The notes: generated from the letters alone by a model not told the origin. A DNA stretch of 28,850 nucleotides from a virus (IMGVR_UViG_3300017991_003853:1-28850); one strand, 5' to 3'. Shown: positions 1 to 25,334, counted from the stretch's first letter. Numbers and translations: made by a program.

Positions 1-893
1 TCCTCGTAGGTAAGACATTCGGGTTGGGAAACGCTGTGATGTGTGTTCCAATGCTCAAGACACTCAAGTCCATGGGACATCGAGTGGATGTGATGGTCGG
101 TTCTCTTCCTGACGACTGCGGAGCCTTTGCAGTAATGGAATGTTTAAGAGACAGCGGCGTCATCGACAATTTGTTCATTAACAGAGCTGGTGAGATTATC
201 TACGACGTCGCCATCATGGCAATTCCCTTCGATGGACGCTGGAGAAACACGGAACACTTTAAGGCCATCAAAGTAATGGATGGAAGGACGCGTCCGGATC
301 CGACGACTGAGGGTCTAGTTTCATGGGAAAAACATGAGATAGAATATCAGATGGACAATGCTCGTGACTTGGGATATGAGGGACCCACGCCTGATTGTAG
401 CTTTCATGCAGTCGATAAGAAGACGAGAGACATCTATTTTGGCGTTGGATATAAGAAGGATGACGCGGGCTTCTGGAAGAAAAAGCATTGGGGAAATGAG
501 AAGTTCTCTCAGCTTGCAACTCGCATCTTGAAGGAGAAGAGAGGTTTTCGCATTCGTTCGACGGGAGATATAATGGACTGGCACCTCTCGCTTCAGCCGA
601 TAATGCGTGGCATCCATAGAGATGTTCAAGCGAGGTTCGTTCCGGAGATAACGGACATCTCACAGGCATTCTACGAAATTAGCACATGCAGACTGTATGT
701 CGGCAATGATACAGGAATGATGCATGTCGCTGCTTCGATGGGGATACCGTGTGTTGCTGTCTTTCCGTTCGGCAGAAAGTCTTCTACGAAGAACGGTCCA
801 TGGGGAACACATGGACATCATTGCTATGATGGCGAAGAGACGACAGTCTCCCAGATGTTTCGTGCTGTAAATGACGTATTGGGATGGAAATGA
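1..893 (+). CDS. GT9-family glycosyltransferase (heptosyltransferase-like), 5' partial
   Basis: The frame is open to the left edge (LVGKTFGLGNAVM from base 3), so the true start lies outside the window. The TTG at 24 sits inside the conserved N-terminal G-L-G-(D/N) motif of the family and is not a likely start. The C-terminal part carries the GT9 signature NDTGMMHVAASMGIPCVAVF, which in heptosyltransferases lines the nucleotide-sugar site. Known role of the family: transfer of heptose from ADP-heptose onto LPS core. The other heptose-like genes in this operon fit a heptose-type donor, but donor and acceptor are not shown by sequence. The stop TGA (891-893) overlaps the next gene by 10 bp. Confidence 0.82.
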   Translation, partial: LVGKTFGLGNAVMCVPMLKTLKSMGHRVDVMVGSLPDDCGAFAVMECLRDSGVIDNLFINRAGEIIYDVAIMAIPFDGRWRNTEHFKAIKVMDGRTRPDPTTEGLVSWEKHEIEYQMDNARDLGYEGPTPDCSFHAVDKKTRDIYFGVGYKKDDAGFWKKKHWGNEKFSQLATRILKEKRGFRIRSTGDIMDWHLSLQPIMRGIHRDVQARFVPEITDISQAFYEISTCRLYVGNDTGMMHVAASMGIPCVAVFPFGRKSSTKNGPWGTHGHHCYDGEETTVSQMFRAVNDVLGWK

Positions 894-1561
894 TGAACAT
901 AAAGATAGAGGTTCTCAACGCTATCCATAAAATGGCGAAGATGCAGGGCGTCGTGCAAGATACTCACGGTAACGTCTCGATGCGAGATGGAAACAATGTG
1001 TGGATTAAACCAAGCGGAGTTCCATACGAGCAAGTCGGCATTAACGATATATGTGGTGTGACGCTGGACGGCGCTCACATTATAGAAGTAGGTAATGTGA
1101 AGCCGAAAGACATTGAAGCTGAAATGAAAAAGAAGCGTCTGAAGCCGTCTGTTGATGCTTCCCATCACATAGACATCTACGATAACCATGAGTGGGTCGG
1201 TGCGATATGTCATACGCATTCTCCATACGCGGTGGCATTCGCGGCATGCGGAATGGACGTCGACTGTTACATAACTGAGCATGCAGATTACTTCGGAGGA
1301 ACAATCAGGTGTCTTCCTTACGCAGATCTCAATAACTGGGGTGATAAAGTAAGTTTCGGTTCAGGGGAGAGAGCTGTGCTTCTTGAGAGACACGGAGTTC
1401 TGACGTTCGGCGATTTGGCGACTGAAGCTGTGAATTTGGCGGTTGCTGTGGAGAATGTAGCGAAGAAGAATTATATCATTCGTTCTTTAAATAAGAACCT
1501 TCCTGAGTTCCATGATGCCGACAAGTGGCATAGGAGATACATGAATGACTACGGACAATAA
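884..1561 (+). CDS. Class II aldolase / L-ribulose-5-phosphate 4-epimerase (AraD/FucA) family protein
   Basis: A 225-residue protein of the usual length for the AraD/FucA family. It has the phosphate-binding motifs GNVS (residues 29-32) and KPSG (42-45), the zinc ligand pair in HTHSPYA (His110, His112) and the third His in ERHGV (His170). Family members cleave or epimerise phosphorylated keto-sugars such as fuculose-1-P or ribulose-5-P through a Zn-stabilised enediolate. Possible starts are ATG 884, 890 or 893; all keep the domain. It overlaps the GT9 gene by 10 bp and the RpiB gene by 17 bp. Next to an isomerase, a transaldolase and kinases it probably supplies or interconverts a phosphorylated sugar. 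The substrate cannot be read. Confidence 0.85.
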   Translation: MEMMNIKIEVLNAIHKMAKMQGVVQDTHGNVSMRDGNNVWIKPSGVPYEQVGINDICGVTLDGAHIIEVGNVKPKDIEAEMKKKRLKPSVDASHHIDIYDNHEWVGAICHTHSPYAVAFAACGMDVDCYITEHADYFGGTIRCLPYADLNNWGDKVSFGSGERAVLLERHGVLTFGDLATEAVNLAVAVENVAKKNYIIRSLNKNLPEFHDADKWHRRYMNDYGQ

Positions 1562-2006
1562 GAAGAGAATTTATATTGCATCCGACCACAACGGGAATGC
1601 AATGCGTGCCCACATTGTGAGGATGTGGAAAGACGTATATGACGTTATCGACTTGGGTCCGTTCGAGTATCACGGCAAAGTTAATTACATCGAATACGCC
1701 TTGGGTCTATGTGAATTGGTAAAGATGAATGATGCAAGGGGAATTCTTATCTGCGGGACTGGGACGGGAATGAGCATAGTGGCGAACCGTTTTGAGGGCA
1801 TCAGAGCCGCTCTCGTCACCGATATGGCCACGTCCTATCTTGCTAGGGAGCACAACGACGCTAATGTGCTTGTCCTCGGCCAGTGGCGAACGCCAATCGG
1901 CGATACTGATGACATCGTCGAGGCATTTATGGAGACTGAGTGTACAGAGCAGAGGCACCTCGACAGGCTCGACATGCTTAAGAAATTGGGAGGGCTGAGA
2001 GTATGA
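1545..2006 (+). CDS. rpiB: Ribose-5-phosphate isomerase B / LacAB family sugar-phosphate isomerase
   Basis: A 153-residue RpiB-like protein. Visible motifs are ASDHNG (residues 12-17), the active-site segment ICGTGTGMSI with Cys70, and REHNDANVLVLGQWR with His103, all hallmarks of the RpiB/LacAB fold. The family interconverts aldose and ketose phosphates (ribose-5-P/ribulose-5-P, allose-6-P, galactose-6-P). ATG 1545 is preceded by AGGAGA (1532-1537) at 7 nt, which favours it over the out-of-frame ATG at 1541. In this operon it could feed pentose phosphate to the transaldolase or substitute for a heptose isomerase; the latter is inference. Confidence 0.9.
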   Translation: MTTDNKKRIYIASDHNGNAMRAHIVRMWKDVYDVIDLGPFEYHGKVNYIEYALGLCELVKMNDARGILICGTGTGMSIVANRFEGIRAALVTDMATSYLAREHNDANVLVLGQWRTPIGDTDDIVEAFMETECTEQRHLDRLDMLKKLGGLRV

Positions 2007-2101
2007 AGATGCTAATAGCGAAATACTGTTGGTATTGCGGACGCAGGACAGATGATGGAAGAATACTGTGTTATCGTTGCATTGAAGAGATTAGAGATTG
2101 A
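2003..2101 (+). CDS. Micro-ORF, 32-residue double-CxxC zinc-knuckle protein
   Basis: ATG 2003 overlaps the RpiB stop as ATGA, and its own TGA (2099-2101) overlaps the next ATG as TGATG. It encodes 32 residues with two CxxC knuckles, CWYC (residues 9-12) and CYRC (23-26), separated by a short Gly/Arg/Asp loop: a minimal zinc-ribbon layout. The rest is Lys/Arg/Glu-rich. The perfect fit between neighbours and the four spaced cysteines argue for a real gene. Function unknown; it could be a nucleic-acid-binding or protein-docking knuckle. An alternative is that it only serves translational coupling between rpiB and the kinase. Confidence 0.6.
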   Translation: MKMLIAKYCWYCGRRTDDGRILCYRCIEEIRD

Positions 2102-3027
2102 TGATGAAGGTTCTAGTTGTCGGCGACGTTATCATCGATAAATTCCACTACGGAACGGCGCTCGGCATTTCCGCCGAGACGCCGACTATAGTGGCGAAGC
2201 GACAGGAAGAGACGTTTACTCTTGGTGGAGCTGCCAATGTGTGCAGACATCTTGAAGAGCTGTGCGCAACATATGCATATCTATTGACTGCAGCTGACGG
2301 TAACGAAAACATTCAAGCGGGCCTGTACACTGAGGTCGTTGAAATTCCGGGCTATAGCGTGACGACGAAGGAACGTTTCTTCGTAGATGGATATAAGCTT
2401 CTTCAGTTCGACCAACTAAATGAGGGCAAACATGATAACGATAGTGAGCTACAATTTTGCGACGCATTTGATGCTTTACTTCCTGACATCGATAGGGTTG
2501 TCATAGCGGACAATCGTCACGGGGTGATGAGCCGAAGAATAGCTGCACATCTCATTAAGAAGTGTAATCAAGTGGGAAAGCCTATTATAGTTGATAGTCA
2601 GGTCTCACAGAGCACTACCAATCACGGTTGGTATAGAGATTGTTCAATCATGTTAGTTAATGAACGTGAGCTTGATGCGATACAGTTTGCGACGTCTGAT
2701 TGTGCATATAAGTTCTGTGAGGGAAATAACGAGCATTTTGATAAAGTGCTTCTCAATCTTTCAAAAAAGTGGAACTGTGATATAGTGGTGAAGCTTGGAG
2801 AGAAGGGCTCATACTCGTTAATCGATGGCATGTTCCACAGACATCATGGGCATGAAGTAGAGATTGTCGATACATGTGGAGCAGGTGATGCTTTTCTAGC
2901 TGTGCTAGCTTCAGGTGAATTGTCCTCAGAGGACGTATCAGATAATCTCAGAAGAGCTAACTTGTGGGCGGCTCTATCTTGCGAAATGAAAGGAACGGAG
3001 ACACCAAATGGGGAAACTCTATCTTGA
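2101..3027 (+). CDS. PfkB-family sugar kinase, HldE N-terminal (heptose-7-phosphate kinase)-like, copy 1
   Basis: A ribokinase-fold kinase of about 308 residues. Seen: N-terminal VLVVGDVIIDKF, substrate-lid motif LGGAANV, and the PfkB ATP/anion-hole motif DTCGAGDAF with catalytic Asp263. The VGDVIIDKF plus GGAANV combination is typical of HldE/RfaE kinase domains, which phosphorylate D-glycero-D-manno-heptose-7-P at C1. The nominal frame extends to TTG 2098, but ATG 2101 overlaps the preceding stop (TGATG) and is preferred; ATG 2104 is also possible. It overlaps the transaldolase by 20 bp. A second, diverged kinase of the same family lies at 10331-11269. The exact sugar is uncertain. Confidence 0.85.
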   Translation: MMKVLVVGDVIIDKFHYGTALGISAETPTIVAKRQEETFTLGGAANVCRHLEELCATYAYLLTAADGNENIQAGLYTEVVEIPGYSVTTKERFFVDGYKLLQFDQLNEGKHDNDSELQFCDAFDALLPDIDRVVIADNRHGVMSRRIAAHLIKKCNQVGKPIIVDSQVSQSTTNHGWYRDCSIMLVNERELDAIQFATSDCAYKFCEGNNEHFDKVLLNLSKKWNCDIVVKLGEKGSYSLIDGMFHRHHGHEVEIVDTCGAGDAFLAVLASGELSSEDVSDNLRRANLWAALSCEMKGTETPNGETLS

Positions 3028-3730
3028 TACTGCGAATATAGATGAAATAAAGAGGCTAACGAGAACGACTGCAATCTCGGGAGTTACGACCAATCCGTCT
3101 CTCATGGCGAAAGAAGAGAAGGGTGACTACGTAGGGAAGCTAAAGGAGATTGCGGAGGAGACGATTGGGATGCACCTCAGCGTCGAGGTCATCACGCTTG
3201 AGCCTAGGGAGATGGTGAAGCAGGCCATCGAACTGAGAGATGAGCTCAAAGACGTTGATTTGTTCGTCAAGATACCGGTCACTCTCGATAATCTGACTGT
3301 CATCTCTCACCTTGAGGTGAATGAGAAAATCAAGGTGAATGCCACGGCGTGCATGACTGCGGACCAAGCCAAGATGGCGATGGACGCTGGCGCATCGGTC
3401 GTCTCTTTCTTCTACAATAGAATGAAGGACGGCAAGCTCGACGCAGATGATGAGTTGAGAAGATTTGCAAATTTCAGGACTAATAAAAATTATGTTTATG
3501 AAAGCAAGATGATGTTTGGCGCAACGCGATGCTACAGTATATACGACATACCCATGCCGAAAGTAATCTGTGGTAGTATTCGAAAGCCTGAAGATATTAC
3601 TGCCTGTTGGGCTGCAGGTGCAGACATAGTCACCGCCTCGATGAAGACGATTGAACAGCTAATTTCACATCCGCAGACAGACAAGGCGATACAAGGATTT
3701 CAGGAGGACATCGAAAAATGGCTCGCGTAA
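3008..3730 (+). CDS. Transaldolase / fructose-6-phosphate aldolase (FSA/TalC type)
   Basis: A 240-residue protein, slightly longer than the about 220-residue FSA/TalC class. The N-terminus LYLDTANIDEIKRL and GVTTNPSL are the class signature. The Schiff-base lysine is Lys88 in FVKIPVT, and NATACMTADQA and AGASVVSFF follow in the usual order. The enzyme moves a dihydroxyacetone unit between sugar phosphates; a true transaldolase makes sedoheptulose-7-P, the starting point of ADP-heptose synthesis. ATG 3008 has GGAG at 2997-3000, 7 nt upstream, supporting this start inside the kinase gene. Phage transaldolases are known from cyanophages, where they redirect pentose-phosphate flux. Whether this one makes heptose precursor or host pentoses is open. 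Confidence 0.92.
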   Translation: MGKLYLDTANIDEIKRLTRTTAISGVTTNPSLMAKEEKGDYVGKLKEIAEETIGMHLSVEVITLEPREMVKQAIELRDELKDVDLFVKIPVTLDNLTVISHLEVNEKIKVNATACMTADQAKMAMDAGASVVSFFYNRMKDGKLDADDELRRFANFRTNKNYVYESKMMFGATRCYSIYDIPMPKVICGSIRKPEDITACWAAGADIVTASMKTIEQLISHPQTDKAIQGFQEDIEKWLA

Positions 3731-4107
3731 TTAAGACAGACCACGAGGACATCGTTCGCGTTGAGCGTGCTTGGGGGCATGAGCTATGGATTGAGAACAT
3801 GGACCTTTACTGTGGTAAGCTTCTTTTTATCAAGAAGGGTCACGCGGGCTCAATGCACTATCACATGAAGAAAACTGAGACGATGTATCTTCAGAGTGGT
3901 TGTGTCGAAATTCAGCTCATTGACCCTGAGGTCGGGCAACGTTACAAACAGGATTTATTTCCTGGAGAGCGTATCTTGCTTCGGCCGGGGCAAGCTCATA
4001 GAATATCGGCGAGAGAAGATAGCGAGCTTTTTGAGTTCAGCACGATGCATTATGAGGATGATAGCTATCGGGTTTCGCCGGGAATGGTATGGGTAGATGA
4101 AGATTAA
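3718..4107 (+). CDS. Cupin, mannose-6-phosphate isomerase type II-like
   Basis: A 129-residue single cupin. Motif 1 is GSMHYHMKKTETMYLQSG (metal-binding H-x-H-x4-E-x6-G) and motif 2 is the RPGQAHRI segment with the third His. ERAWGHELWIEN at the N-terminus resembles the start of the C-terminal isomerase domain of bifunctional mannose-6-P isomerase/GDP-mannose pyrophosphorylases. Such proteins isomerise or epimerise sugar phosphates or nucleotide sugars. AGGAGG at 3702-3707 supports ATG 3718. It overlaps the transaldolase by 13 bp and the next glycosyltransferase by 11 bp. The specific substrate is not determined by these motifs. Confidence 0.78.
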   Translation: MARVIKTDHEDIVRVERAWGHELWIENMDLYCGKLLFIKKGHAGSMHYHMKKTETMYLQSGCVEIQLIDPEVGQRYKQDLFPGERILLRPGQAHRISAREDSELFEFSTMHYEDDSYRVSPGMVWVDED

Positions 4108-4990
4108 CATGATTGGCGCGTTCGTTCGAAACGCGCCATTCGGCACCGAGATTGCTTTTGCCAAGGGTTTGATGGATATTGGCGTAGATGTTGCAATGTT
4201 CGACCCTAGCAGGCCGAACGACACACAGCGTTGGCACATTCTTCCAGATGCCACGATCATATTCAAGAATGCCGGTGATTTTGTAGGCATGGTAAATCCG
4301 ACTGCTCCGGCAATAGTCTATCAGCCAGATGACGTCAGGGCTCCAGGCATTGAGAACATGCTAAAGGAGACGCTGGAATACTGTCAGTATGCTTTCACGT
4401 TCGATAGCACGGGCGCCGAAGTTGCGGAGCGACTGGGATACGAAAAAGCAAAGAAGCTAATCGTGACTGCTGACCCGAGCATTTATCGACCACTGAGCAT
4501 TGAGAAGACGCAGGACTTCTGTTTCATAGGAAGCCTTAGCAATCCCATCATGCATGAGAGCCGTCGCAGGATGGTGAATATTTTGAATGACGCAGGATAC
4601 AGCGTCGCATCTGGTGGAACGTTCGACCCACACGAGATAAACAAGATATACAACCAATCGAGGGTCGTGCTAAACCATGCTTGTGATGTGGGACAGCCTT
4701 TTGGAGAGGGGTGGGGATATCAGTGCAGGCATTTTGAGGCGGGCTTCTCTGGCGCATGTCTGCTTTCAAATACTGTGTTAGGTGATGAGGGTGACGGGCC
4801 TCGGCAGTTCTGCACGTTTGAAGATGGGTCGGCGCTTCTGGAAGTTGCCGAGGATCTCATACACGGATGGTTTGATGGTCCCATTTACGAGAGACAAGGG
4901 GCGGCCTTCTACCAGGAATTGTGTGAAGACCATCTACCTATCCATCGAGCGGAGGAAATCGTCAGCTTCATAAAGGAGATTGAATGCTGA
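4097..4990 (+). CDS. CgeB-like / Glyco_trans_1_2 glycosyltransferase
   Basis: A 297-residue GT-B-type protein. The C-terminal half has FIGSLSNPIMHESRRRMV, then YNQSRVVLNHACD, then RHFEAGFSGACLLSN, the arrangement of the Glyco_trans_1_2 (CgeB/spore maturation) group where the conserved Glu contacts the donor sugar. The N-terminal half (residues 1-140) has the Rossmann-like FDPSRP and VYQPDDVR segments of an acceptor domain. Related proteins are frequent in phage and capsule sugar clusters. A GC-rich 9-bp hairpin (4114-4138) lies in codons 6-14 and may affect translation. Donor and acceptor unknown. Confidence 0.8.
   Translation: MKINMIGAFVRNAPFGTEIAFAKGLMDIGVDVAMFDPSRPNDTQRWHILPDATIIFKNAGDFVGMVNPTAPAIVYQPDDVRAPGIENMLKETLEYCQYAFTFDSTGAEVAERLGYEKAKKLIVTADPSIYRPLSIEKTQDFCFIGSLSNPIMHESRRRMVNILNDAGYSVASGGTFDPHEINKIYNQSRVVLNHACDVGQPFGEGWGYQCRHFEAGFSGACLLSNTVLGDEGDGPRQFCTFEDGSALLEVAEDLIHGWFDGPIYERQGAAFYQELCEDHLPIHRAEEIVSFIKEIEC
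4114..4138. repeat. Inverted repeat, 9-bp arms, 7-nt loop
   Basis: TGGCGCGTT (4114-4122) pairs perfectly with AACGCGCCA (4130-4138) around a 7-nt loop. It sits just after the cupin stop (4105-4107) and in the first codons of the CgeB-like gene. No T-run follows, so it is not a standard intrinsic terminator. It may influence mRNA stability or initiation, or be a chance structure. Confidence 0.5.
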
Positions 4991-5571
4991 AGTTAAATCT
5001 TGGGTGTGGACAGGACAGTCGTGAGGGGTACCATAACGTAGATTTGATGATGCCGTGTGATGAACTTCTCGATTTGGGAAAGCTTCCGTGGCCGTGGCAG
5101 GACGGCATCGCTGATGAGATATTGATGCTGGATTTTCTTGAGCACTTTCCGTATGGGAAGACTGACGCAATTCTTCAGGAGTGCTGGCGTGTTCTGTCGA
5201 CCGACGGTTTCGTAGATATCCAGGTTCCTGATTTTGAGATTTGTTCAGATGCTGCGAATGTTAATCTTGTTGGCAATCATATGTGCAATTTTTGTGGAGG
5301 CAATTTTCGTATTTTTGCTGATGAAATGAGTGGTGGCTGCAGTGAGTGCGGAAAAGGACCGATGGAGATTGCCCAAGCTGCGATGAACCGCCTTTACGGC
5401 GGACAGGATGTAGAGGGAAATTGGCATTATACTGCATTCACGAAGAGAATGCTTCAGCATAAACTGATGAGTTTTGGTTTTGGTAAGTTTAAGTTTCTTG
5501 AAGAGGAACATCAGAGAATGAATTGGAACTTCAAGATGCGGGCTTTCAAGCTCGAAGATCCGTGGGGGTAA
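4984..5571 (+). CDS. SAM-dependent methyltransferase with inserted zinc ribbon
   Basis: A 195-residue class I methyltransferase. Motif I is LNLGCGQD (residues 4-11), the acidic ribose-binding position is VDL (19-21), and MLDFLEHFP (48-56) and CWRVLSTDGFVDIQVPDF (67-84) match motifs post-I to III of the Methyltransf_11-like group. Residues 101-122 add a CxxC...CxxC zinc ribbon (Cys101, 104, 119, 122) between the core and the C-terminal LYGGQDVEGNWHYTAF segment, which resembles the family again. AAGGAGAT at 4973-4980 supports ATG 4984. In a sugar operon it probably methylates a nucleotide sugar or glycan; the ribbon might bind target or partner. Target unknown. Confidence 0.82.
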   Translation: MLKLNLGCGQDSREGYHNVDLMMPCDELLDLGKLPWPWQDGIADEILMLDFLEHFPYGKTDAILQECWRVLSTDGFVDIQVPDFEICSDAANVNLVGNHMCNFCGGNFRIFADEMSGGCSECGKGPMEIAQAAMNRLYGGQDVEGNWHYTAFTKRMLQHKLMSFGFGKFKFLEEEHQRMNWNFKMRAFKLEDPWG

Positions 5572-5574
5572 AGA

Positions 5575-6546
5575 TTGAGCTGGAAAGATAGAAACGTTTT
5601 AATAACGGGAGTGGGCGGCTTCGTCGGCTCTCGTCTTGCCATGAGGCTAAATGACGAAGGAGCAAACGTCGTCGGCCTGGTGAGAAACATTAACTCGCTC
5701 CCTCCAACGATAGCGAATGACATCAATGTTCTCATCGGCGACATCTGCGATTACGATGACCTCTGTGAAGCGATTTCCTTCTATGAAATCGACACAATCT
5801 ACCACTTCGCAGCGTATGCGATAGTCAGGGTCTCGTCAAAGGATCCGATGACGACGTATCGAGTGAATGTCATGGGGACTGCCAATCTTCTAGAGGCCGC
5901 TAGGAACGTGGGAAGGGTGGAGCGCATCGTCGTCGCGTCGTCCGACAAGGCATACGGAGACCACGTATCTCTGCCATACACAGAGAACCACTCTCTTCAG
6001 CCGAGAAACACATACGATACGTCTAAGGCGTGCATGGACATGGTCTCCAGGTCATACGCGTGGAACTACGACATGCCAATCTTCGTGTCCAGATGCAGCA
6101 ACATCTACGGTCCCGGAGACATGAACCTCTCTCGTATAATTCCGAATACGATAAGACGAGCCTCAGAGGGAAAGCCGCCGCAGCTCTACTCTGACGTCGA
6201 GAAGATGAAGCGCGAGTTTGTCTATATCAATGACGTCATCGATGCATATCTTAAGATGGGAGACGTCAGGACGAACGTCTTTACCGGAGAGGCTTACAAT
6301 GTCGGCGGCACCGGAGAGGTGGAAATCTACGAGCTGGTCGATAAGATTTCGAAGATACTCGGCGTCGAGGAGAGCCCAATCGTTCTGCCGAGAGACCCGC
6401 TTTTCAAGGAAATTGAGCGCCAATACATTGACGCCTCCAAGCTTGAGCGGGACATGAAGTGGAAGCCGACTACCAGCCTTGATGAGGGGCTGCACAGGAC
6501 CGTCGATTGGTATCTTGATTACTACGAGAAGGGATTATATAAGTGA
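5575..6546 (+). CDS. NAD(P)-dependent nucleotide-sugar epimerase/dehydratase (extended SDR)
   Basis: A 323-residue extended SDR. Rossmann motif TGVGGFVG (residues 11-18), YHFAAYA, ASSDKAYGD for the catalytic Ser/Asp region, and the catalytic Tyr-x3-Lys pair YDTSK (Tyr147, Lys151). The SSDKAYG pattern is closest to CDP-glucose or dTDP-glucose 4,6-dehydratases, but 4-epimerases cannot be excluded. TTG 5575 is the likely start: the first in-frame ATG (5641) would delete the NAD motif, and TGGGGG at 5561-5566 lies upstream. The only gap in the sugar operon (3 bp) precedes this gene. It ends in a 4-bp overlap with the next gene. Confidence 0.88.
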   Translation: MSWKDRNVLITGVGGFVGSRLAMRLNDEGANVVGLVRNINSLPPTIANDINVLIGDICDYDDLCEAISFYEIDTIYHFAAYAIVRVSSKDPMTTYRVNVMGTANLLEAARNVGRVERIVVASSDKAYGDHVSLPYTENHSLQPRNTYDTSKACMDMVSRSYAWNYDMPIFVSRCSNIYGPGDMNLSRIIPNTIRRASEGKPPQLYSDVEKMKREFVYINDVIDAYLKMGDVRTNVFTGEAYNVGGTGEVEIYELVDKISKILGVEESPIVLPRDPLFKEIERQYIDASKLERDMKWKPTTSLDEGLHRTVDWYLDYYEKGLYK

Positions 6547-6836
6547 AGATAAAATTTATAGCGCTCGAGAAGCTTTTTACGAGGGGACACGAAACGTTCT
6601 ACATCGAAGAGGGCAAGCATTTCGGCGAGAGTTGGGCGGCAATCACGATACACGGCTCGTGCAGCTATAATATGACGAAGTTCTATCTCAATGGAGAGTT
6701 CGTGGGAAGGGGACACATAGAGTATATGTCAGTTCCTGAGCCACTGAACTGGGCTCAGAAGACCGTCATAGATAGTTGTGATGTCGAAGAATTTACATAT
6801 GGTGATGCTGGCATCACGCTGAGGGTGAAGGTGTGA
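6543..6836 (+). CDS. Hypothetical protein (97 aa) in the sugar operon
   Basis: GTG 6543 overlaps the SDR stop as GTGA and the ORF ends in GTGA with the next gene, so it is held between neighbours by 4-bp overlaps at both ends. A purine-rich GAAGGGA lies about 9 nt upstream. The 97 residues are mixed alpha/beta with many aromatics (FYIEEGKHFGESW, NMTKFYLNGEFVGRG) and no signal peptide or membrane segment. I do not recognise the family. Its position before a glycosyltransferase suggests a sugar-related or glycosyltransferase-partner role, but that is inference only. Confidence 0.65.
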   Translation: MKIKFIALEKLFTRGHETFYIEEGKHFGESWAAITIHGSCSYNMTKFYLNGEFVGRGHIEYMSVPEPLNWAQKTVIDSCDVEEFTYGDAGITLRVKV

Positions 6837-7894
6837 GGATTGCTTTCATCGGAATAGAGAAGGACTGGTTGGACCTGGAACGCAGAAACTACGTTCGTCA
6901 ATTTATCCAGTATCACCTTGAGCTTCCTTATTACTATGCAGTTTACGGTTTCAATAGCGTAGATATTGTTTCTGATTATGCCTGGGGTCCAGTGATGACT
7001 TTTCAGGATGCAAGTCCCGTTGAGGTTCTTAGATACGATGAGTTCTTGAAACGTGAATACGATGTTGTCATCCATTGGCGAAAGTGGTTTGAGGAATGCC
7101 ATCGACCAGAAGCGATAAACGTAATTAACAGTCAGGACCACTCATACGGACGAGAGTGGCTTCAGACTGTAGAGAGTGCTACCGTCGATGACAAACTTTA
7201 TGGTATTCTTTGTTTTCCGACGTGGCACGAGCGTAACATAGCGGAGGAGTGCATTCGTATGCCTGTGGCGCCCCGTCTGCTGCCCGGTGTGACACTCGGA
7301 GTGGATACGAGCATATACCAACCGTCGCCGGAGAAGAACCGTCACCAGCTTCTCTGGGCCTCGGACCCTGGCCGTGGGATACAGGAAGCCTACGAAATAA
7401 CGATGATGCTATTCCAGCGTGATAAACGCTTCAGGCTTCACGTGTGCTGGCCGGACTACGTGAATCTTCAATATGATATTGGAGGCGAATTGCAATCTGG
7501 AATGATAAAAGTTATTCATCCAGCCATTGTGTATCACGATAATCTTGACAATGGTCCAGAACTGTGGAATTTATTCAATACGAGTGGGTTCCTCCCATAC
7601 ACTTCCATATTCAAGGAACCCTCATCCAGGGCGCACCGTCAGGCGATGGCGGCCGGCTGCGTGGTCCTCTATCCGCCTGATATGGGTACGCCGTCCGAGC
7701 TCATACAGCCGGGAGTGGATGGAATAGTGTGTGATGTAGAACATTGGGTCTCGCTCATAGACCAATATGCGAATGCAAATGAGTATCACTATGAACTGAT
7801 ATCTAATAATGCGAGAACGCGTGCGGTAGCAGAAAACTGGCGGGTTCAGGCACAGCGCTTCAACAAATTATTCGAGGGAATTATCAATGGTTAG
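6833..7894 (+). CDS. GT4-type (GT-B fold) glycosyltransferase
   Basis: A 353-residue protein starting at GTG 6833 (GTGA overlap with the previous stop). The C-terminal domain has LLWASDPGRGIQEAYE (about residue 179 on), then the EPSSRAHRQAMAAGCVVLYPPDMGT-type segment, spanning the E-x7-E-like donor-binding region of GT4 enzymes, and LIQPGVDGIVCD as in GT4 glycosyltransferases. The N-terminal half resembles a diverged acceptor domain, with the LLPGVTLGVDTSIYQP linker typical of GT-B proteins. It follows other glycan genes and probably adds one sugar in the same pathway. Donor sugar not evident. Confidence 0.82.
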   Translation: MRIAFIGIEKDWLDLERRNYVRQFIQYHLELPYYYAVYGFNSVDIVSDYAWGPVMTFQDASPVEVLRYDEFLKREYDVVIHWRKWFEECHRPEAINVINSQDHSYGREWLQTVESATVDDKLYGILCFPTWHERNIAEECIRMPVAPRLLPGVTLGVDTSIYQPSPEKNRHQLLWASDPGRGIQEAYEITMMLFQRDKRFRLHVCWPDYVNLQYDIGGELQSGMIKVIHPAIVYHDNLDNGPELWNLFNTSGFLPYTSIFKEPSSRAHRQAMAAGCVVLYPPDMGTPSELIQPGVDGIVCDVEHWVSLIDQYANANEYHYELISNNARTRAVAENWRVQAQRFNKLFEGIING

Positions 7895-8864
7895 CATCAA
7901 CGATCCGGACTTTGTAGAGAATTTTGATTTGTCAAAGATGACGGTGGGTTCCGTCGGTTTTGGCTATGTAGGAAAAGCGGTAATCTCGTTCTTCGAGGAT
8001 GACTGTTCTACTTTAGTGTATGACAAATATCAGGAAGGTTTTGACACTCTTGAGAACGTCGTTCGCGAGAGCCACATCATTTTTGCATGTGTGCCGACGC
8101 CGATGGAGAAGGACGGTTCTTGTCACACCGGCATCGTAGAGAGCGTGCTTAATGACATAAAGACGACAGCGAAGAACGTGGGTCGCGATGTCAGCGAGTT
8201 TGTTGTTATCATTAAAAGCACCGTGTGGCCGGGCTTCACCGAGAAGATGCAGGCGGAGAGCGGGCTCCGCGTTCTGTTTTCTCCTGAGTTTCTCACGGAG
8301 AAGAACAGCATCGAGGATTTTGAGACCATCGAGCGCGTCATTTTGGGCGGTGATGAGGAGGACGCTCTTGTCGTCGGCAAATTCTTTGAGAGGAAAATCA
8401 TGTTAAAAAATGATGGCATGATTTTTCAGTGCGGCCCGACGACGGCTGAACTGTGTAAGCTCTTTACGAATGCAATTCTTGCAACGAAGGTAATCTTTGG
8501 AAATGAGATGTATCTGCTTTGTAATGAGCTGGGTGTTGATTACGATGAGGTGAAGCTGTTGGCGTGTCTCGATTACAGGAGAATTGCGAACAGTCACTTG
8601 GACGTGCCAGGTCCGGACGGAGATTTAGGTTACGGTGGCCACTGTTTTAGCAAAGATGTTAATAACTTACGTCATTTTTGTGCATCTGTTGGTTTAAAAG
8701 AAAAGCTTTTTTCTGTCATCCTTGATAGGAATGATGAAATTAGAACCAATAGAGATTGGGAAGAAATGGAAGGTCGAGCTGTTATAGGTGATTATAGCAA
8801 AAAGTCGGTAAGCACTGACCAGAAAGACTATTTAGTGCATGCCGATGACAAAGAAAAATTGTGA
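7887..8864 (+). CDS. UDP-glucose/GDP-mannose dehydrogenase family protein, short form
   Basis: A 325-residue protein with NAD-binding VGFGYVGKAV (residues 23-32), CVPTP, STVWPGFTE, SPEFLTEKNSI, the central-helix N and K in FTNAILATKV, and the catalytic Cys253 in GYGGHCFSKDV. These are the signature steps of NAD-dependent four-electron oxidation of UDP-glucose (or ManNAc/GDP-mannose) to the uronate. Typical enzymes have 390-450 residues; here most of the C-terminal UDP-binding domain is absent and the last 25 residues overlap the endonuclease gene. Short phage versions exist, but loss through the neighbouring insertion is possible. GAGGGAA at 7874-7880 supports ATG 7887. Confidence 0.85.
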   Translation: MVSINDPDFVENFDLSKMTVGSVGFGYVGKAVISFFEDDCSTLVYDKYQEGFDTLENVVRESHIIFACVPTPMEKDGSCHTGIVESVLNDIKTTAKNVGRDVSEFVVIIKSTVWPGFTEKMQAESGLRVLFSPEFLTEKNSIEDFETIERVILGGDEEDALVVGKFFERKIMLKNDGMIFQCGPTTAELCKLFTNAILATKVIFGNEMYLLCNELGVDYDEVKLLACLDYRRIANSHLDVPGPDGDLGYGGHCFSKDVNNLRHFCASVGLKEKLFSVILDRNDEIRTNRDWEEMEGRAVIGDYSKKSVSTDQKDYLVHADDKEKL

Positions 8865-9597
8865 GATTTGTGGTTCTGAGTTTAAAACATATGTGAAGCC
8901 GTCTCGCCCTGAACGTGCTACTAGGACTTGCTCTAAAGAATGTCTTAAGAAACTTAAAAGTAAGATTTTCTCTGGGAAAGGAAATCCCGCTTATGGCAGG
9001 ACGTATAGAACGAAAGAGACGCATCCTGAGTGGGCTGCGAAAGTCTCAAAGACTAGCAAAGAGAGAAAGATAAATTCTGGTGAAAAGAACGGAATGAAGA
9101 AGCCAGAGTTTCGTAAGAAGGCTTCAATTTCTGCAAAGAAGAAATTTGAAAATCAAGAAATGAGGGATTTAATTTCTCGTGGTGTCGCAAGAGCATGGGC
9201 TCGCGGAGACTTCGACGGCGTTCGTGTTGGACAATGTTCGTGGCATGATTACGAGAAGAAAGACGGCCAAACAATAAAATGCCAGGGTCTCTGGGAGTTA
9301 GAATTTGCTAGGTATCTCGATGAGAACGACATCAAGTTCGACGCACATGTCGGGCGAATTCCCTACGTCGATGACGACGGGAACGAGCGCTCATACTATC
9401 CTGACTTCTATTTCATCGAAGAAGATAAATATGTTGATGTGAAGAACCCATATTACGAGACGGCTCATGCTTCAAAAATTGAAGCTGTAAAACGAGATAA
9501 TCCGAACATAGAACTTGAAGTATACGGATGGAAAAAGCTGGCAGAGTTGAACATCCCGCTATCAGGTTTTAGTGAAGGAAGGTTTGATGTCATCTAA
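8839..9597 (+). CDS. Free-standing homing-endonuclease-like protein: zinc finger, NUMOD3-like repeats, PD-(D/E)XK nuclease
   Basis: A 252-residue protein. N-terminus: four-cysteine finger (Cys8, Cys11, Cys31, Cys35). Middle: Lys/Arg-rich segment with GKGNPAYGRTYR and GEKNGMKKPEFRKKAS, resembling NUMOD3 DNA-binding modules of homing endonucleases. C-terminus: WELEFARYL (Glu153/155), YPDF (Asp189) and DVK (Asp200, Lys202), the layout of a PD-(D/E)XK nuclease core. It overlaps the dehydrogenase by 26 bp and the phosphatase by 11 bp and has no link to sugar chemistry, as expected for a mobile gene. The first part looks more A/T- and Lys-rich than its neighbours. ATG 8845 is an alternative start. 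Other nuclease roles cannot be excluded. Confidence 0.75.
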   Translation: MPMTKKNCEICGSEFKTYVKPSRPERATRTCSKECLKKLKSKIFSGKGNPAYGRTYRTKETHPEWAAKVSKTSKERKINSGEKNGMKKPEFRKKASISAKKKFENQEMRDLISRGVARAWARGDFDGVRVGQCSWHDYEKKDGQTIKCQGLWELEFARYLDENDIKFDAHVGRIPYVDDDGNERSYYPDFYFIEEDKYVDVKNPYYETAHASKIEAVKRDNPNIELEVYGWKKLAELNIPLSGFSEGRFDVI

Positions 9598-9928
9598 GAC
9601 GATAGTGATGGACCTGGACGGGACGTTGTGCTCACAGGAGAGGACGGGGACGTATCACCTAGCGAAGCCAAAGACTGAGGTAATTCGCAAGGTCAATTTG
9701 CTTTGGACTGAGGGATACAAGATTGTCATCTTCACGGCTCGCGGCATGAGCGCCTGCTCTGGCAATGTTGAGTTCATCGAGGAGAACTACCGCGAGATGA
9801 CTGAAACGTGGCTGAAAGACAATCGTGTTTGTTACGATGAGCTCAGGTTCGGCAAAGAAGATGCTATGTATTTCGTTGATGACAAGGGTCTTACACCAAA
9901 GGAATTCGTTAATACGGAGTTTGAATGA
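9587..9928 (+). CDS. HAD-family phosphatase, EcbF/BcbF capsule-biosynthesis type
   Basis: ATG 9587 is preferred over the upstream GTG 9572 because GAAGGAAGG lies just before it; this gives 113 residues. HAD motif I is MDLDGTLC (Asp9, Asp11), motif II IFTARGM, and motif III/IV FGKEDAMYFVDDKG with the acidic pair. The GTYHLAKP segment and the spacing of GNVEFIEENYREMTETWL match the small cap-less EcbF/BcbF phosphatases found in capsule gene clusters. A likely role is to dephosphorylate a sugar phosphate; in this operon it could stand in for the heptose-1,7-bisphosphate phosphatase GmhB, which is inference. It overlaps the nucleotidyltransferase as ATGA. Confidence 0.83.
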   Translation: MSSKTIVMDLDGTLCSQERTGTYHLAKPKTEVIRKVNLLWTEGYKIVIFTARGMSACSGNVEFIEENYREMTETWLKDNRVCYDELRFGKEDAMYFVDDKGLTPKEFVNTEFE

Positions 9929-10341
9929 GAGTATTCACGAACGGTTGCTTTGACCTGTTCCATGTAGGCCATCTTCAGACAATAGAGTATGCAGAATGGC
10001 TCGCTGGAGACGATGGTCAGGTGTGGGTCGGCATCAACAGTGATGAAAGTGTGAGACGTCTCAAGGGAGATGACAGGCCAATCATTAGACAATGGGAACG
10101 TCTTCGTATCGTAAGCAATCTTTATATGGTTTATGGCGTCCATATTTTCGATGAAGACACTCCATACGAGCTTATCAAGCGAGTTAAACCAGATATTATC
10201 GTGAAAGGACCAGAGTATGCCGGACTTGAAGACACTGTGGTCGGCGCGGACATTGCTGAGGTTCGCATCGTTCCTAAAGAATATCATGCAGAGGGTGTCT
10301 CGACTTCTGCTATCATTGAGAAAATAAAGAATGGTCCCTAA
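9925..10341 (+). CDS. Sugar-1-phosphate nucleotidyltransferase, HldE C-terminal (ADP-heptose synthase)-like
   Basis: A 138-residue cytidylyltransferase-fold enzyme. TNGCFDLFHVGHL contains the nucleotide-binding HxGH motif (His13, His16); VGINSDESVRRLKGDDRPII, the DTPYELI segment, PDIIVKGPEY and the final VSTSAII (ISSTxxI-like) follow the HldE/RfaE C-terminal domain closely. Known reaction: heptose-1-phosphate plus ATP gives ADP-heptose. Glycerol-3-phosphate cytidylyltransferase is the main alternative, but VKGPEY and RPII favour the HldE type. GGAG at 9916-9919 supports ATG 9925. The following gene is an HldE-type kinase overlapping by 11 bp, so the bifunctional HldE appears here as two proteins in swapped order. 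Confidence 0.85.
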   Translation: MRVFTNGCFDLFHVGHLQTIEYAEWLAGDDGQVWVGINSDESVRRLKGDDRPIIRQWERLRIVSNLYMVYGVHIFDEDTPYELIKRVKPDIIVKGPEYAGLEDTVVGADIAEVRIVPKEYHAEGVSTSAIIEKIKNGP

Positions 10342-11269
10342 GAAAGTTCTCGTAATAGGCGATATAATTTACGATCGCTACGTTTACGTTAAGACTGAGC
10401 GGATGAGCCAGGAGGCGTCGGACGTTCCAATTTATGACGTAGAGGAAGAAGATGAAGTGAGATTGGGAGGTGCTGCAAATGTAGCAGCTAACATTCAGGC
10501 TCTTGGCGGCGATGAAGTTGAGGTATATGTATCTGGCATTTGTGGTGTGGGTGAGCAGTATGAGATGACGCATCATGGTCTCATACCAAACAGGTGCTAT
10601 GCATCACGTGACCGTATGGAGAAGTGTAGGTTCATCGACGGTGCCACACATATCTTTCGTGTTGATAACAGAAAGAAGTTTAGCAGCAGCGATGTTTGCA
10701 TCTTTGAAGATAAGATGGAGAGGACAACCTTTGACTTCGACGCCGTCATCTTCTCCGATTATGATAAAGGAACGATAACGAAGTCAATCGTCAAAAAAGC
10801 AATTGAAAGCGACGCGCTCGTCATCGTCGATAGCAAACGCCCGTGCCTCAGCATGTATCGTGGTGCCGACGTCCTGACGTTCAATCTTGAGGAGTTCAGT
10901 CATCAGATATACAGGAGCGAATATCCATACGTTGAGGAGCTTTTTAAATATGTAGTGATAACGATGGGCGCCGCTGGTGCTCGACTTCATTGGATTGATA
11001 GCATCGATACATCTATACCGCCGGGTGTCGTCAAGGGTAGATACAAGGTTTCGTCGATGGAGTTTGAGGCGACCGACATTGATGACGTCGTCGATACAAC
11101 AGGTTGCGGAGACACTCACACTGCGGCAATAACGATGGGTCTGCTGAGAGATCCAGGAAACATCATCGATAGCATAATTTACGCCAACAAGTGTGCTGCC
11201 ATCGCGGTTCAGAGGTTTGGCACAACGAGAGTGAGCAAATGGGACTTATCGAAAGCATCTGCGGAATAA
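10331..11269 (+). CDS. PfkB-family sugar kinase, HldE N-terminal-like, copy 2
   Basis: A 312-residue ribokinase-fold protein. VLVIGDIIYDRYVY at the N-terminus, LGGAANVAANIQALGG as the lid motif, and FSDYDKGT followed by VIVDSKRP, as in HldE/RfaE kinases. The ATP/anion-hole motif reads DTTGCGDTHTAA: the catalytic Asp261 is kept but the usual Ala of G-A-G-D is Cys. It is only distantly similar to copy 1 (2101-3027), so it may use a different sugar. It overlaps the nucleotidyltransferase gene by 11 bp, consistent with a split HldE. The M15 peptidase gene starts within its last 31 bp. Confidence 0.84.
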   Translation: MVPKKVLVIGDIIYDRYVYVKTERMSQEASDVPIYDVEEEDEVRLGGAANVAANIQALGGDEVEVYVSGICGVGEQYEMTHHGLIPNRCYASRDRMEKCRFIDGATHIFRVDNRKKFSSSDVCIFEDKMERTTFDFDAVIFSDYDKGTITKSIVKKAIESDALVIVDSKRPCLSMYRGADVLTFNLEEFSHQIYRSEYPYVEELFKYVVITMGAAGARLHWIDSIDTSIPPGVVKGRYKVSSMEFEATDIDDVVDTTGCGDTHTAAITMGLLRDPGNIIDSIIYANKCAAIAVQRFGTTRVSKWDLSKASAE

Positions 11270-12006
11270 TCAGAAAGAAGGAGTTTGGAAAGACTTTTGA
11301 GGAAGAGAGTGAGCTTTCTTTTGTTGAAAAGGTTTTTGATGCGCATGGTAATTGTGAGACGCTGTTTGAGGAGTTTCATGGTCCGGCGGAGATACCTAGC
11401 AATAGAACAGAGCTCTATGCTCTTTACGGTCGCGCTCCTAAAGAGAAGAAGCATCTTGCATTTCCAAAATGTAGAATGACCACTGTCAAGAAACTGCCTG
11501 GCAATTGGAATAACGGTTCTGGAAAGCTGCACGTCGCAGAATACGTAGCTCCATATCTCCAAGAAGCATTAAGAAGGGTTGACACGGTGGCTGGGCTGGT
11601 CGAGGTGGATAGAATGGGCTCATACTGTCATCGTCACATCAGACATGATGAGAGCAGACCGCTCAGTTATCATTCATGGGGAGCAGCCATTGACATTGAC
11701 CCGCATAAGAATAAGTCAAAGTATCGAGCAAAAACGTGGTCTGACAACATGAAGTGTGGCCCGATACCACCACCGTTTAGCAAAGAATGGATGGAACTGT
11801 GGCCGAATGGTGTGTCATATGGAATGGTTAGAATATTCAAGTCATGTGGTTTTACGTGGGGCGGAGATTGGGGACACGGTGATTGGGAGAGCTGCGTCCA
11901 GGAATTCGGTGTGGGATATGAAAGCCCGTCGGTGGGCCAGTGTGTTCGCGACTGGAAGAAAGTGTCTTACACTGACCCGATGCACTTTCAGTTGGTCGGT
12001 CGCTAA
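11239..12006 (+). CDS. M15-family peptidase (D-Ala-D-Ala carboxypeptidase/endopeptidase-like lysin)
   Basis: A 255-residue protein from ATG 11239; the longer frame back to 11191 would lie deep in the kinase gene. The M15 zinc motif S-x-H-x2-G-x-A-x-D is present as SYHSWGAAID (His145, Asp152), with the distal DPMH (Asp246, His249) supplying catalytic acid and third ligand positions. Such enzymes cut peptide stems of peptidoglycan. The first about 100 residues are not recognised and have no signal peptide. It may be an endolysin or a virion-borne peptidase used in entry; its position directly before the tail genes leaves both open. It is the last gene of the overlapping chain and ends just before a promoter. 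Confidence 0.8.
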   Translation: MGLIESICGIIRKKEFGKTFEEESELSFVEKVFDAHGNCETLFEEFHGPAEIPSNRTELYALYGRAPKEKKHLAFPKCRMTTVKKLPGNWNNGSGKLHVAEYVAPYLQEALRRVDTVAGLVEVDRMGSYCHRHIRHDESRPLSYHSWGAAIDIDPHKNKSKYRAKTWSDNMKCGPIPPPFSKEWMELWPNGVSYGMVRIFKSCGFTWGGDWGHGDWESCVQEFGVGYESPSVGQCVRDWKKVSYTDPMHFQLVGR

Positions 12007-24377: not shown

Positions 24378-25322
24378 ATGTCTTTATACTCTCCATTTTT
24401 TGATGTAGATAACGATGAAGGGTCTGGCGTTAAAGACAGCGGAGGAACTCTCTTTCCATCGACGTCAGTCCTTTCTGGTCAGAGATTAAACGGTGAAAAT
24501 GACCATACTATTGAGTTTTGGATGAAACCTTCGACGCTCTCTGTTACAAATTCGCCGCAGGGCATAATAGAGAAAAGAAACTCGACTGGCGGAGGTCAAT
24601 CTCCATATTTTTATGCTTTGCTAGATGGTGGTGGCTTCCGCTCAGCTGTCAGAAGTTCGAACGCGAACTTGGGCGAGCAAAGACAGTGGAACCAGAGTGT
24701 AATAAATCTTATTGCGGGGCAATGGGATCATTGGGCATTTACGCTTGACATATCTGCTGCGTTTGAGAGCAAGTGGCATTTGTATAAAAATGGTGTAGAC
24801 TTGCTTACAGGTTCTAGTGCGGGACAAGCAGCAACCGTGAATAGTATTTACAGCAGCAATGGAGATTTCGTCTTGATGAGTCCAGAAGCTGGTGGAGATA
24901 CGGTGGGCGGTCAGTTGTTTGATGTTAGAATTTGGAATACACTGAGAACGCCTGCACAAATCAATGAGAACTATACAAAATTACTTGATGACCCAGCAGG
25001 AGAAGCAAATCTTGTTGGTAATTGGTATCGTGGCGTAGATGACGACCACACCGATGCTTCATCAGAGGGGAATAACCTTGCTACTTATGGCGGTGATGAT
25101 GAAGAGGGCATCGATATACTGTTTCTTCTCGATGACCCACTCTTACTGGGCAACGCAATGGAGGCAACATTTCCAGAACCGAGACCTGGCGCGAGAATAT
25201 TAGGGCAGGCAAACGTAAGCCAAGCGCATGTGGGAGCGATAAAGACGATAAGCGTAAGTCACTCTGGAGAGACGTTAGTGGTAACGAATAGGACAGGACT
25301 TATAAAGTATCCTCTGCCGTAG
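24378..25322 (+). CDS. LamG/concanavalin-like domain virion protein
   Basis: A 314-residue protein with a jellyroll of about 220 residues: DHTIEFWMKPSTLSVTNSPQ, GQWDHWAFTLD, WHLYKNGVDL and QLFDVRIWNTLRTPAQI are the usual LamG-like strands and closing motif. The last about 50 residues carry EPRPGARILGQANVSQAHVG, sharing the EPRPG core with the small protein upstream. It directly follows TAA in the same frame. Likely a fibre or appendage component that binds glycans. Related in domain type to the two LamG modules in the 1006-residue protein. Confidence 0.7.
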   Translation: MSLYSPFFDVDNDEGSGVKDSGGTLFPSTSVLSGQRLNGENDHTIEFWMKPSTLSVTNSPQGIIEKRNSTGGGQSPYFYALLDGGGFRSAVRSSNANLGEQRQWNQSVINLIAGQWDHWAFTLDISAAFESKWHLYKNGVDLLTGSSAGQAATVNSIYSSNGDFVLMSPEAGGDTVGGQLFDVRIWNTLRTPAQINENYTKLLDDPAGEANLVGNWYRGVDDDHTDASSEGNNLATYGGDDEEGIDILFLLDDPLLLGNAMEATFPEPRPGARILGQANVSQAHVGAIKTISVSHSGETLVVTNRTGLIKYPLP

Positions 25323-25334
25323 GGAGAACAAACA

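Follow-up and report, generated by a model that had tools for sequence, protein, structure and literature searches.

Cyanophages carry gene clusters that combine short-chain dehydrogenase/reductases (SDRs), cupin isomerases, PfkB kinases, HIGH-superfamily nucleotidyltransferases (NTases), HAD phosphatases and glycosyltransferases, and that have been proposed to remodel the surface against rival phages (Iyer et al. 2021, PMC7824862). A second system for comparison is the ADP-L-glycero-D-manno-heptose pathway of GmhA, HldE, GmhB and HldD. Here we analyze a sugar operon of the viral contig IMGVR_UViG_3300017991_003853 (the window; the entire IMG/VR record of 28,850 bases), which an earlier note had taken for a heptose-like nucleotide-sugar pathway. 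Its genes look like a full set for the construction, activation and attachment of an unusual sugar. Our sequence comparisons point to a composite locus, in which an HldE-type activation core (the kinase Kin2, an NTase, a HAD phosphatase and a cupin) lies beside pentose-phosphate enzymes, tailoring enzymes and three glycosyltransferases. The heptose interpretation fits the Kin2/NTase core, but not the other half, made up of a second kinase (Kin1), an AraD-type epimerase homolog (AldII), the ribose-5-phosphate isomerase homolog RpiB and the transaldolase Tal. The explanation that we favor, and to which we give an even chance, is that the phage makes one or two unusual nucleotide-activated sugars and attaches them to a glycan, most likely of the host envelope, during infection.

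The window contains the cyanophage-type set for nucleoside diphosphate (NDP) sugars at one locus: a PfkB kinase, a HIGH-family NTase, a cupin, an SDR, a HAD and several glycosyltransferases. It shares the NTase, PfkB kinase, small HAD, cupin, SDR and glycosyltransferases with the 'LPS' (lipopolysaccharide)/nucleotide-sugar clusters of P-SSM2, S-CAM1, P-TIM68 and S-T4, and the clusters of P-SSM2 and S-CAM1 likewise stand beside tail genes. However, the cyanophages represent a different phage lineage, their loci have no RpiB, AraD or second kinase, and the SDR of the window differs from theirs in being of the 4,6-dehydratase type. The likeness to the ADP-heptose pathway is also partial. Kin2 and the NTase are of the HldE type, a GT9 glycosyltransferase is present, and the HAD and the isomerase-type cupin could fill the GmhB and GmhA steps. 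On the other hand, the window is without GmhA, GmhB and HldD, has HldE split into two genes scoring below equivalog cut-offs, and adds RpiB, AraD, a transaldolase and a second kinase.

Two gene sets in one operon

All operon genes are encoded on the + strand, and nearly all overlap or are spaced by no more than 4 bases (gene calls and gap list). Their order is GT9, AldII, RpiB, Kin1, Tal, cupin, GTa, MT, SDR, a 97-aa open reading frame (ORF), GTb, UGDH, an endonuclease-like gene, HAD, NTase, Kin2 and an M15 peptidase. Domain matches confirm that the enzymes named in the earlier note are present where it placed them. Its description of the operon as uninterrupted overlooks the homing-endonuclease-like gene at 8839–9597, which interrupts the series. 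On the 3′ side follow a late-sigma-factor-like (sigma-55) gene and then gp5/gp25/gp6-like baseplate genes. Since these genes adjoin the operon, the phage is T4-like; a megablast of the window against phages found no named phage with a DNA-level match.

The operon recurs at the same site, 5′ of the sigma-55/baseplate genes, in seven other viral contigs (L232–L237 and L292), and each of these operons is directly followed by the same genes, a small ORF, the sigma factor and gp5. Apart from accessory genes, the gene order of the window is kept in L236 (the same record as L088, IMGVR_UViG_3300031772_003178), L237 and L292. L232–L235, which are near-duplicates of one another, keep the operon genes but for the SDR, which is likewise missing from L292. 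Partial copies, covering the downstream part of the operon, occur in L003 and L291. The operon is real and conserved beyond chance.

The genes of the operon split into two sets, each able to occur alone in other phages. Set B, seen in P-SSM2, S-CAM1, S-T4 and P-TIM68, consists of the NTase, kinase, small HAD, cupin and SDR. Set A consists of RpiB, Kin1, AldII, cupin, Tal and HAD. Its RpiB carries a C-terminal fusion to a second RfaE-II-like NTase in 49 viral contigs (some of them near-duplicates) and in five more reached via Tal. Of the fused loci, 44 have 5 kb or more of downstream sequence; Tal is present in 43 of these, Kin1 and the cupin in 42 each, the HAD in 39 and AldII in 37, giving a near-invariant module RpiB::NTase-Kin1-AraD-cupin-Tal-HAD. 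The loci without AraD have no substitute second gene, their genes being contiguous. In L091, L239 and L240 set A is followed by set B; the window combines set B with set A, minus the fused NTase and the set-A cupin.

Among cellular genomes the fusion is rare: of 388 prokaryotic genome matches, the best 80 include only eight cases. The Prochlorococcus single-cell contig AG-347-M18 (L099, 10001–10858), which may be phage DNA or a host island, bears the fused module, and cellular versions of the module have a double cupin, as if two phage cupins had been joined (L098, 3122–3937; L101, 2707–3504). Four set-A phages carry photosystem genes and therefore probably infect cyanobacteria. Sugar clusters of this general kind have been published for cyanophages, whereas set A and the RpiB::NTase fusion are apparently undescribed: in the open-access literature we found no account of either, of the GmhB/HAD exchange discussed below, or of a phage transaldolase-heptose pathway.

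The HldE-type activation core

The two kinases of the operon match PfkB with 87 and 71 bits (Pfam), and both had been regarded as HldE-type, a view that holds for Kin2 (10331–11269) but not for Kin1 (2101–3027; PF00294, 87 bits). When 53 kinases were placed in a maximum-likelihood tree, one branch (27 rows, SH-aLRT 99) united Kin2 of the window lineage with E. coli HldE, phage HldE and the kinases of cyanophages, and all 24 Kin1-type kinases fell outside it; the tree was made by a quick method and has long outgroup branches, and placement within families needs care. Four basic residues are near-invariant in the HldE branch (E. coli R31 in 26 of 27; R118, K154 and K179 in 27 of 27) and probably bind the terminal phosphate. 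Kin2 keeps all four. Kin1-type kinases have lost them: R31 is replaced by Gly in 22 of 24 and R118 by Gln in 23 of 24, K154 has mostly become His or Cys, and K179 is Gln in every one. The catalytic D264 is retained in all aligned kinases.

The NTase (9925–10341; CTP_transf_like, 62 bits), a sugar-1-phosphate nucleotidyltransferase of the RfaE-domain-II type, clusters with phage HldE-type NTases and keeps their EDTP and V-x-G motifs, in agreement with its earlier assignment to the HldE C-terminal type; its nearest solved structure is HldC (5x9q). For HldC, EXTP has been predicted as one of the motifs that bind substrate, yet the enzyme also accepts β-glucose 1-phosphate (PMC7993394), so the NTase family alone is no proof of heptose. 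In profile searches Kin2 (TIGR02198, 166 bits, cut-off 345), the NTase (TIGR02199, 124.5 bits, cut-off 181.5) and Kin1 alike stay below the NCBIfam HldE equivalog cut-offs.

Neither GmhA nor GmhB had been noticed in the window, and searches with PF13580 (SIS_2) and NF006506, respectively, gave no match there. In GmhB's place stands a small phosphatase of the EcbF type (HAD, 9572–9928, with ATG at 9587 the likelier start; TIGR01689, 66 bits), the nearest solved structure of which is 1xpj. To assess this exchange we considered 80 related phage loci, defined by an NTase like that of the window and carrying the same NTase/kinase pair. A GmhB-like gene is present in 35 of them and a small HAD in 16, but no locus has both (Fisher p = 3e-5, kinship ignored). 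With one representative per 80% identity group, nine have GmhB, 11 the HAD, nine neither and none both, and the GmhB/HAD state switches at least three times on the tree. Because the two are mutually exclusive, the simplest reading is that the small HAD performs the GmhB step, as had been suggested. The GmhB-like gene of these relatives has GmhB as its best family (137 bits, cut-off 178). An HldD-like SDR occurs in 70 of the 80 loci and has heptose epimerase as its best family (185–235 bits in three examples, cut-off 274.6).

As for GmhA, no SIS_2 match above the cut-off was found in 68 related records, including four complete cyanophage genomes; the window is a fragment, and GmhA may be supplied by the host. 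We rejected a weak SIS match in the L088 record (15 bits, in an ORF with a hydrophobic segment). Cyanophage genes annotated as 'phosphoheptose isomerase' were also discarded as true GmhA: phrog_1238 matches HAD and those genomes have no SIS_2. The label is wrong, since the genes encode small HADs without SIS_2 (L083, 12742–13080; L084, 13077–13400; L085, 15098–15442).

A better candidate for the GmhA step is the single-domain cupin (CupinB, 3718–4107; phrog_7851), a putative sugar-phosphate isomerase. Present in 71 of the 80 loci, the cupin is the only extra gene that stays constant. Its 18 invariant residues across 22 sequences include H47, H49, E54 and H94 and contain the cupin metal site, and the Foldseek matches of its model (pLDDT 91) include D-lyxose and phosphomannose isomerases, among other cupins. 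These features lead us to infer that the cupin acts at this step. The fold itself does not single out an isomerase, because in VIA-align many cupins tie at Z 13–15, with a CapF domain scoring highest. RpiB, which the earlier note had put forward as the replacement for GmhA, is a less likely substitute, because it keeps a pentose-phosphate site and was not seen in the many phage loci with HldE, HldD and GmhB.

The RpiB, AraD, Tal and Kin1 module

AraD, RpiB, Tal and Kin1 form a conserved phage module of their own, one of pentose-phosphate chemistry, which the earlier note had overlooked. AldII (884–1561; Aldolase_II, 132 bits) belongs to the class II aldolase family, as had been noted, but its active site is that of the L-ribulose-5-phosphate 4-epimerase AraD: the window protein retains E. 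coli AraD N28, K42, S44, S74, D76, H95, H97, T116, D120, H171 and Y229. N28, S74, D76, H95, H97, T116, D120, H171 and Y229 are kept in 37 of 37 AldII proteins, the Zn ligands H95, H97 and H171 included, and the nearest solved structure is 1jdi. The window AldII scores below NCBIfam cut-offs, and that of L091 exceeds an AraD subfamily cut-off. RpiB is unfused in the window (1545–2006; LacAB_rpiB, 139 bits), where it scores above the cut-off of NF004051 (140.9 bits against 135) and below that of TIGR01120 (115.6 against 138.65); the fused RpiB of L091 passes the latter, which is the RpiB equivalog cut-off. The RpiB active site (D, H, C, T, H, N, R, R) is conserved in 48 of 48 proteins. Between RpiB and Kin1, a 30-codon ORF with two CxxC motifs, read from the sequence (2009–2101), occupies the sole real gap of the operon.

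Tal (3008–3730; PF00923, TAL_FSA, 144 bits) has Phe at the position of FsaA Y131 and the Schiff-base Lys (K85) in 42 of 42 proteins, and Glu at Q59 in 41 of 42. By these residues it is a TalC-family transaldolase, as first named, and not a fructose-6-phosphate aldolase; the nearest solved structure is the transaldolase 3r8r. The model of Kin1 (pLDDT 89) is closest to HldA (4e84, TM 0.84; E 8e-27, the next family reaching 1e-18), which makes Kin1 a sister of HldA whose site is altered. A viral scan with a single Kin1 sequence confirmed nothing. The fused NTases form a separate clade (support 96) that has lost the EDTP motif and gained a V-R-x-R-D motif.

Which product these enzymes serve can be judged from which genes each scheme accounts for: a pentose leaves Tal unexplained, and a heptose leaves RpiB and AraD unexplained. 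If the product were an NDP-pentose, AraD and RpiB would provide an unusual pentose 5-phosphate (e.g. L-arabinose or L-ribose 5-phosphate from xylulose 5-phosphate), Kin1 would act at C1, the HAD would take the 5-phosphate and the NTase would form the NDP-pentose, with Tal only replenishing pentose phosphates. The complete AraD site, the pentose site of RpiB, the members of both families that pass AraD subfamily and RpiB equivalog cut-offs, and the RpiB-NTase fusion in about 50 phage contigs all argue in this direction. Phages are moreover known to modify DNA with NDP-pentoses (PMC6024577, PMC12838424), and the T4-like phages RB69 and Thanatos, which have base arabinosylation modules, are believed to produce an activated pentose. 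Those modules, however, use other enzyme families (SIS isomerase, NTP-transferase), and no hydroxymethylase family was found in 21 records of the window's relatives. Tal, present in 43 of the 44 fused loci, would have no direct step, and AraD is missing from seven of them; Kin2 retains the HldE residues, and no pentosyl-specific transferase was recognized. We consider an NDP-pentose unlikely.

Ranked below it, and doubtful, is an NDP-octose made by the logic of lincosamide biosynthesis. A C1 kinase step belongs to that logic, which in the octose pathway of LmbR, LmbN, LmbP, LmbK and LmbO runs through transaldolase, isomerase, C1 kinase, phosphatase and nucleotidyltransferase and was compared with the window by gene logic only. 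RpiB would provide ribose 5-phosphate, which Tal would extend to octulose 8-phosphate with three carbons taken from fructose 6-phosphate or sedoheptulose 7-phosphate, and the cupin isomerase, Kin1 at C1, the HAD phosphatase and the nucleotidyltransferase would follow. This is the sole simple scheme to place RpiB and Tal in one line, and it explains their near-constant linkage. The AraD gene is optional; with 37 of 44 loci it is absent more often than any other. In lincomycin biosynthesis the transaldolase LmbR does make octulose from ribose 5-phosphate (PMC5854111), and the cluster includes genes for an isomerase, phosphatase and nucleotidyltransferase as well (PMC12945683). Yet no sequence feature indicates C8 specificity, the likeness to LmbR and LmbN is one of gene logic and not of sequence comparison, and what AraD does is left unexplained.

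It is very improbable that Tal and RpiB instead route host carbon via the pentose phosphate pathway to nucleotides, as proposed for cyanophage talC, next to unrelated surface genes. Cyanophages commonly carry TalC (502 phage records matched), a transaldolase of this same type. But cyanophage talC sits apart, beside photosynthesis or nucleotide genes, whereas Tal, RpiB, AraD and Kin1 are embedded in an operon for sugar activation, and RpiB and the NTase often form one fused protein. Taking the module by itself, we tentatively propose, as a possibility short of an even chance, that RpiB::NTase-Kin1-(AraD)-cupin-Tal-HAD is a new, largely virus-borne pathway to a sugar of no described route (e.g. 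an NDP-octose or an L-pentose/heptose variant), with Kin1 as a new kinase class and a bifunctional isomerase-nucleotidyltransferase; the window would hold the unfused form.

Proposed glycan assembly and role

The three glycosyltransferases of the operon, together with its dehydrogenase and methyltransferase-like gene, suggest that a modified glycan is assembled. The GT9-family protein (heptosyltransferase family; 3–893, its 5′ end cut by the contig end; PF01075, 50 bits) has heptosyltransferase II as its best NCBIfam match, with 42 bits against a cut-off of 134.6. It is kept in L232, L234–L237 and L292 and adjoins set A in five of eight cellular loci. Being patchy in phages and far below the heptosyltransferase cut-offs, it was rejected as proof of heptose. 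Relatives have a second GT9-like domain some 7 kb upstream of the operon, as part of proteins about 1050 aa long (L236 record, G040, 29135–29503; L235 record, G048, 25131–25541; L237 record, G049, 24533–24877); the window ends before that point. GTa (4097–4990), a GT-B glycosyltransferase (PF13524, 30 bits), and GTb (6833–7894), a GT1-like one (PF00534, 20 bits, below cut-off), are both conserved in relatives.

The SDR (5575–6546; SDR, 208 bits), of the nucleotide-sugar 4,6-dehydratase/epimerase type, scores 182 bits with TIGR01181 against 99 with the heptose epimerase TIGR02197, and its nearest structures, 6bi4 and 2hun, are dTDP-glucose 4,6-dehydratases; it is thus closest to dTDP-/CDP-glucose 4,6-dehydratases and not to HldD. 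The methyltransferase-like gene (MT, 4984–5571), which owes its name to the earlier note, has no match in Pfam, PHROG or NCBIfam and has homologs in L088, L232, L237 and L292. The 97-aa ORF (6543–6836) has no Pfam or PHROG match and is absent from L088.

UGDH (7887–8864; PF00984 and PF03721), a short NDP-sugar dehydrogenase, reaches 156.5 bits with TIGR03026 (cut-off 189.8). Its shortness, remarked on before, is genuine for the lineage: the proteins have about 300 aa (also L003, 796–1701; L236, 12500–13441), keep the catalytic Cys motif and lack the UDP-binding domain at the C-terminus. In the window, the C-terminus is longer by about 23 residues owing to the endonuclease-like gene (8839–9597; phrog_22215 and endonuclease PHROGs), which is absent from L003, L088, L232, L237 and L292. 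Because UGDH of relatives ends in DWExMxxRAV and the HAD follows immediately, synteny suggests that this gene, which lies outside the pathway, is a homing-endonuclease-like insert exactly at the UGDH-HAD junction. An M15 peptidase-like gene, possibly an endolysin (11236–12006, 3′ of Kin2), was seen only in the window and L291.

According to the explanation we favor, the transaldolase would make a longer ketose phosphate from pentose or hexose phosphates, the cupin would convert ketose to aldose phosphate in a GmhA-like step, a kinase would phosphorylate C1, the HAD would remove the terminal phosphate in a GmhB-like step and the NTase would form the NDP-sugar. The SDR, dehydrogenase and methyltransferase would then modify it, and GT9, GTa and GTb would transfer the sugar. 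For the Kin2/NTase core the likeliest product would be a C7 sugar from sedoheptulose 7-phosphate, with RpiB and AraD adjusting the pentose-phosphate supply. The 'transketolase central region' of P-TIM68 (L083, 9317–10462) is short and resembles parts of pyruvate dehydrogenase E1 alpha and beta; scoring as E1-like, it was not used as a source of sedoheptulose 7-phosphate.

Several observations weigh against this explanation. No member reaches the NCBIfam equivalog cut-offs for HldE, GmhB or HldD, and HldD as well as GmhB is missing from the window. We know of no heptose pathway in which RpiB or AraD takes part. There are two kinases but only one NTase, and the cupin fold is common to many non-isomerases. 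Targeting of the envelope is itself deduced, since the contig is a fragment.

The sugar might instead decorate phage DNA or virion proteins, as the existence of phage NDP-pentose DNA modifications (PMC6024577, PMC12838424) and the position of the operon next to late structural genes might suggest. We regard this as improbable. PF00303, the thymidylate-synthase/dCMP-hydroxymethylase family, is absent from 21 related records, which are fragments and possibly incomplete (the window itself was not searched); this speaks weakly against T4-type base modification and leaves the DNA-modification role raised in the earlier note without support. The GT9 and GT-B families, for their part, suit glycan assembly. 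Remodeling of a surface glycan by the NDP-sugars, e.g. for superinfection exclusion, is the likely role.

What had been read as one heptose pathway is now separated into two things. Comparative evidence suggests that phages swap GmhB for a small HAD and manage without GmhA. Set A emerges as a mostly viral module of six soluble enzymes, with ribose-phosphate isomerase and nucleotidyltransferase fused. If its product is indeed a new surface sugar, the module would show how T4-like phages rebuild host glycans.

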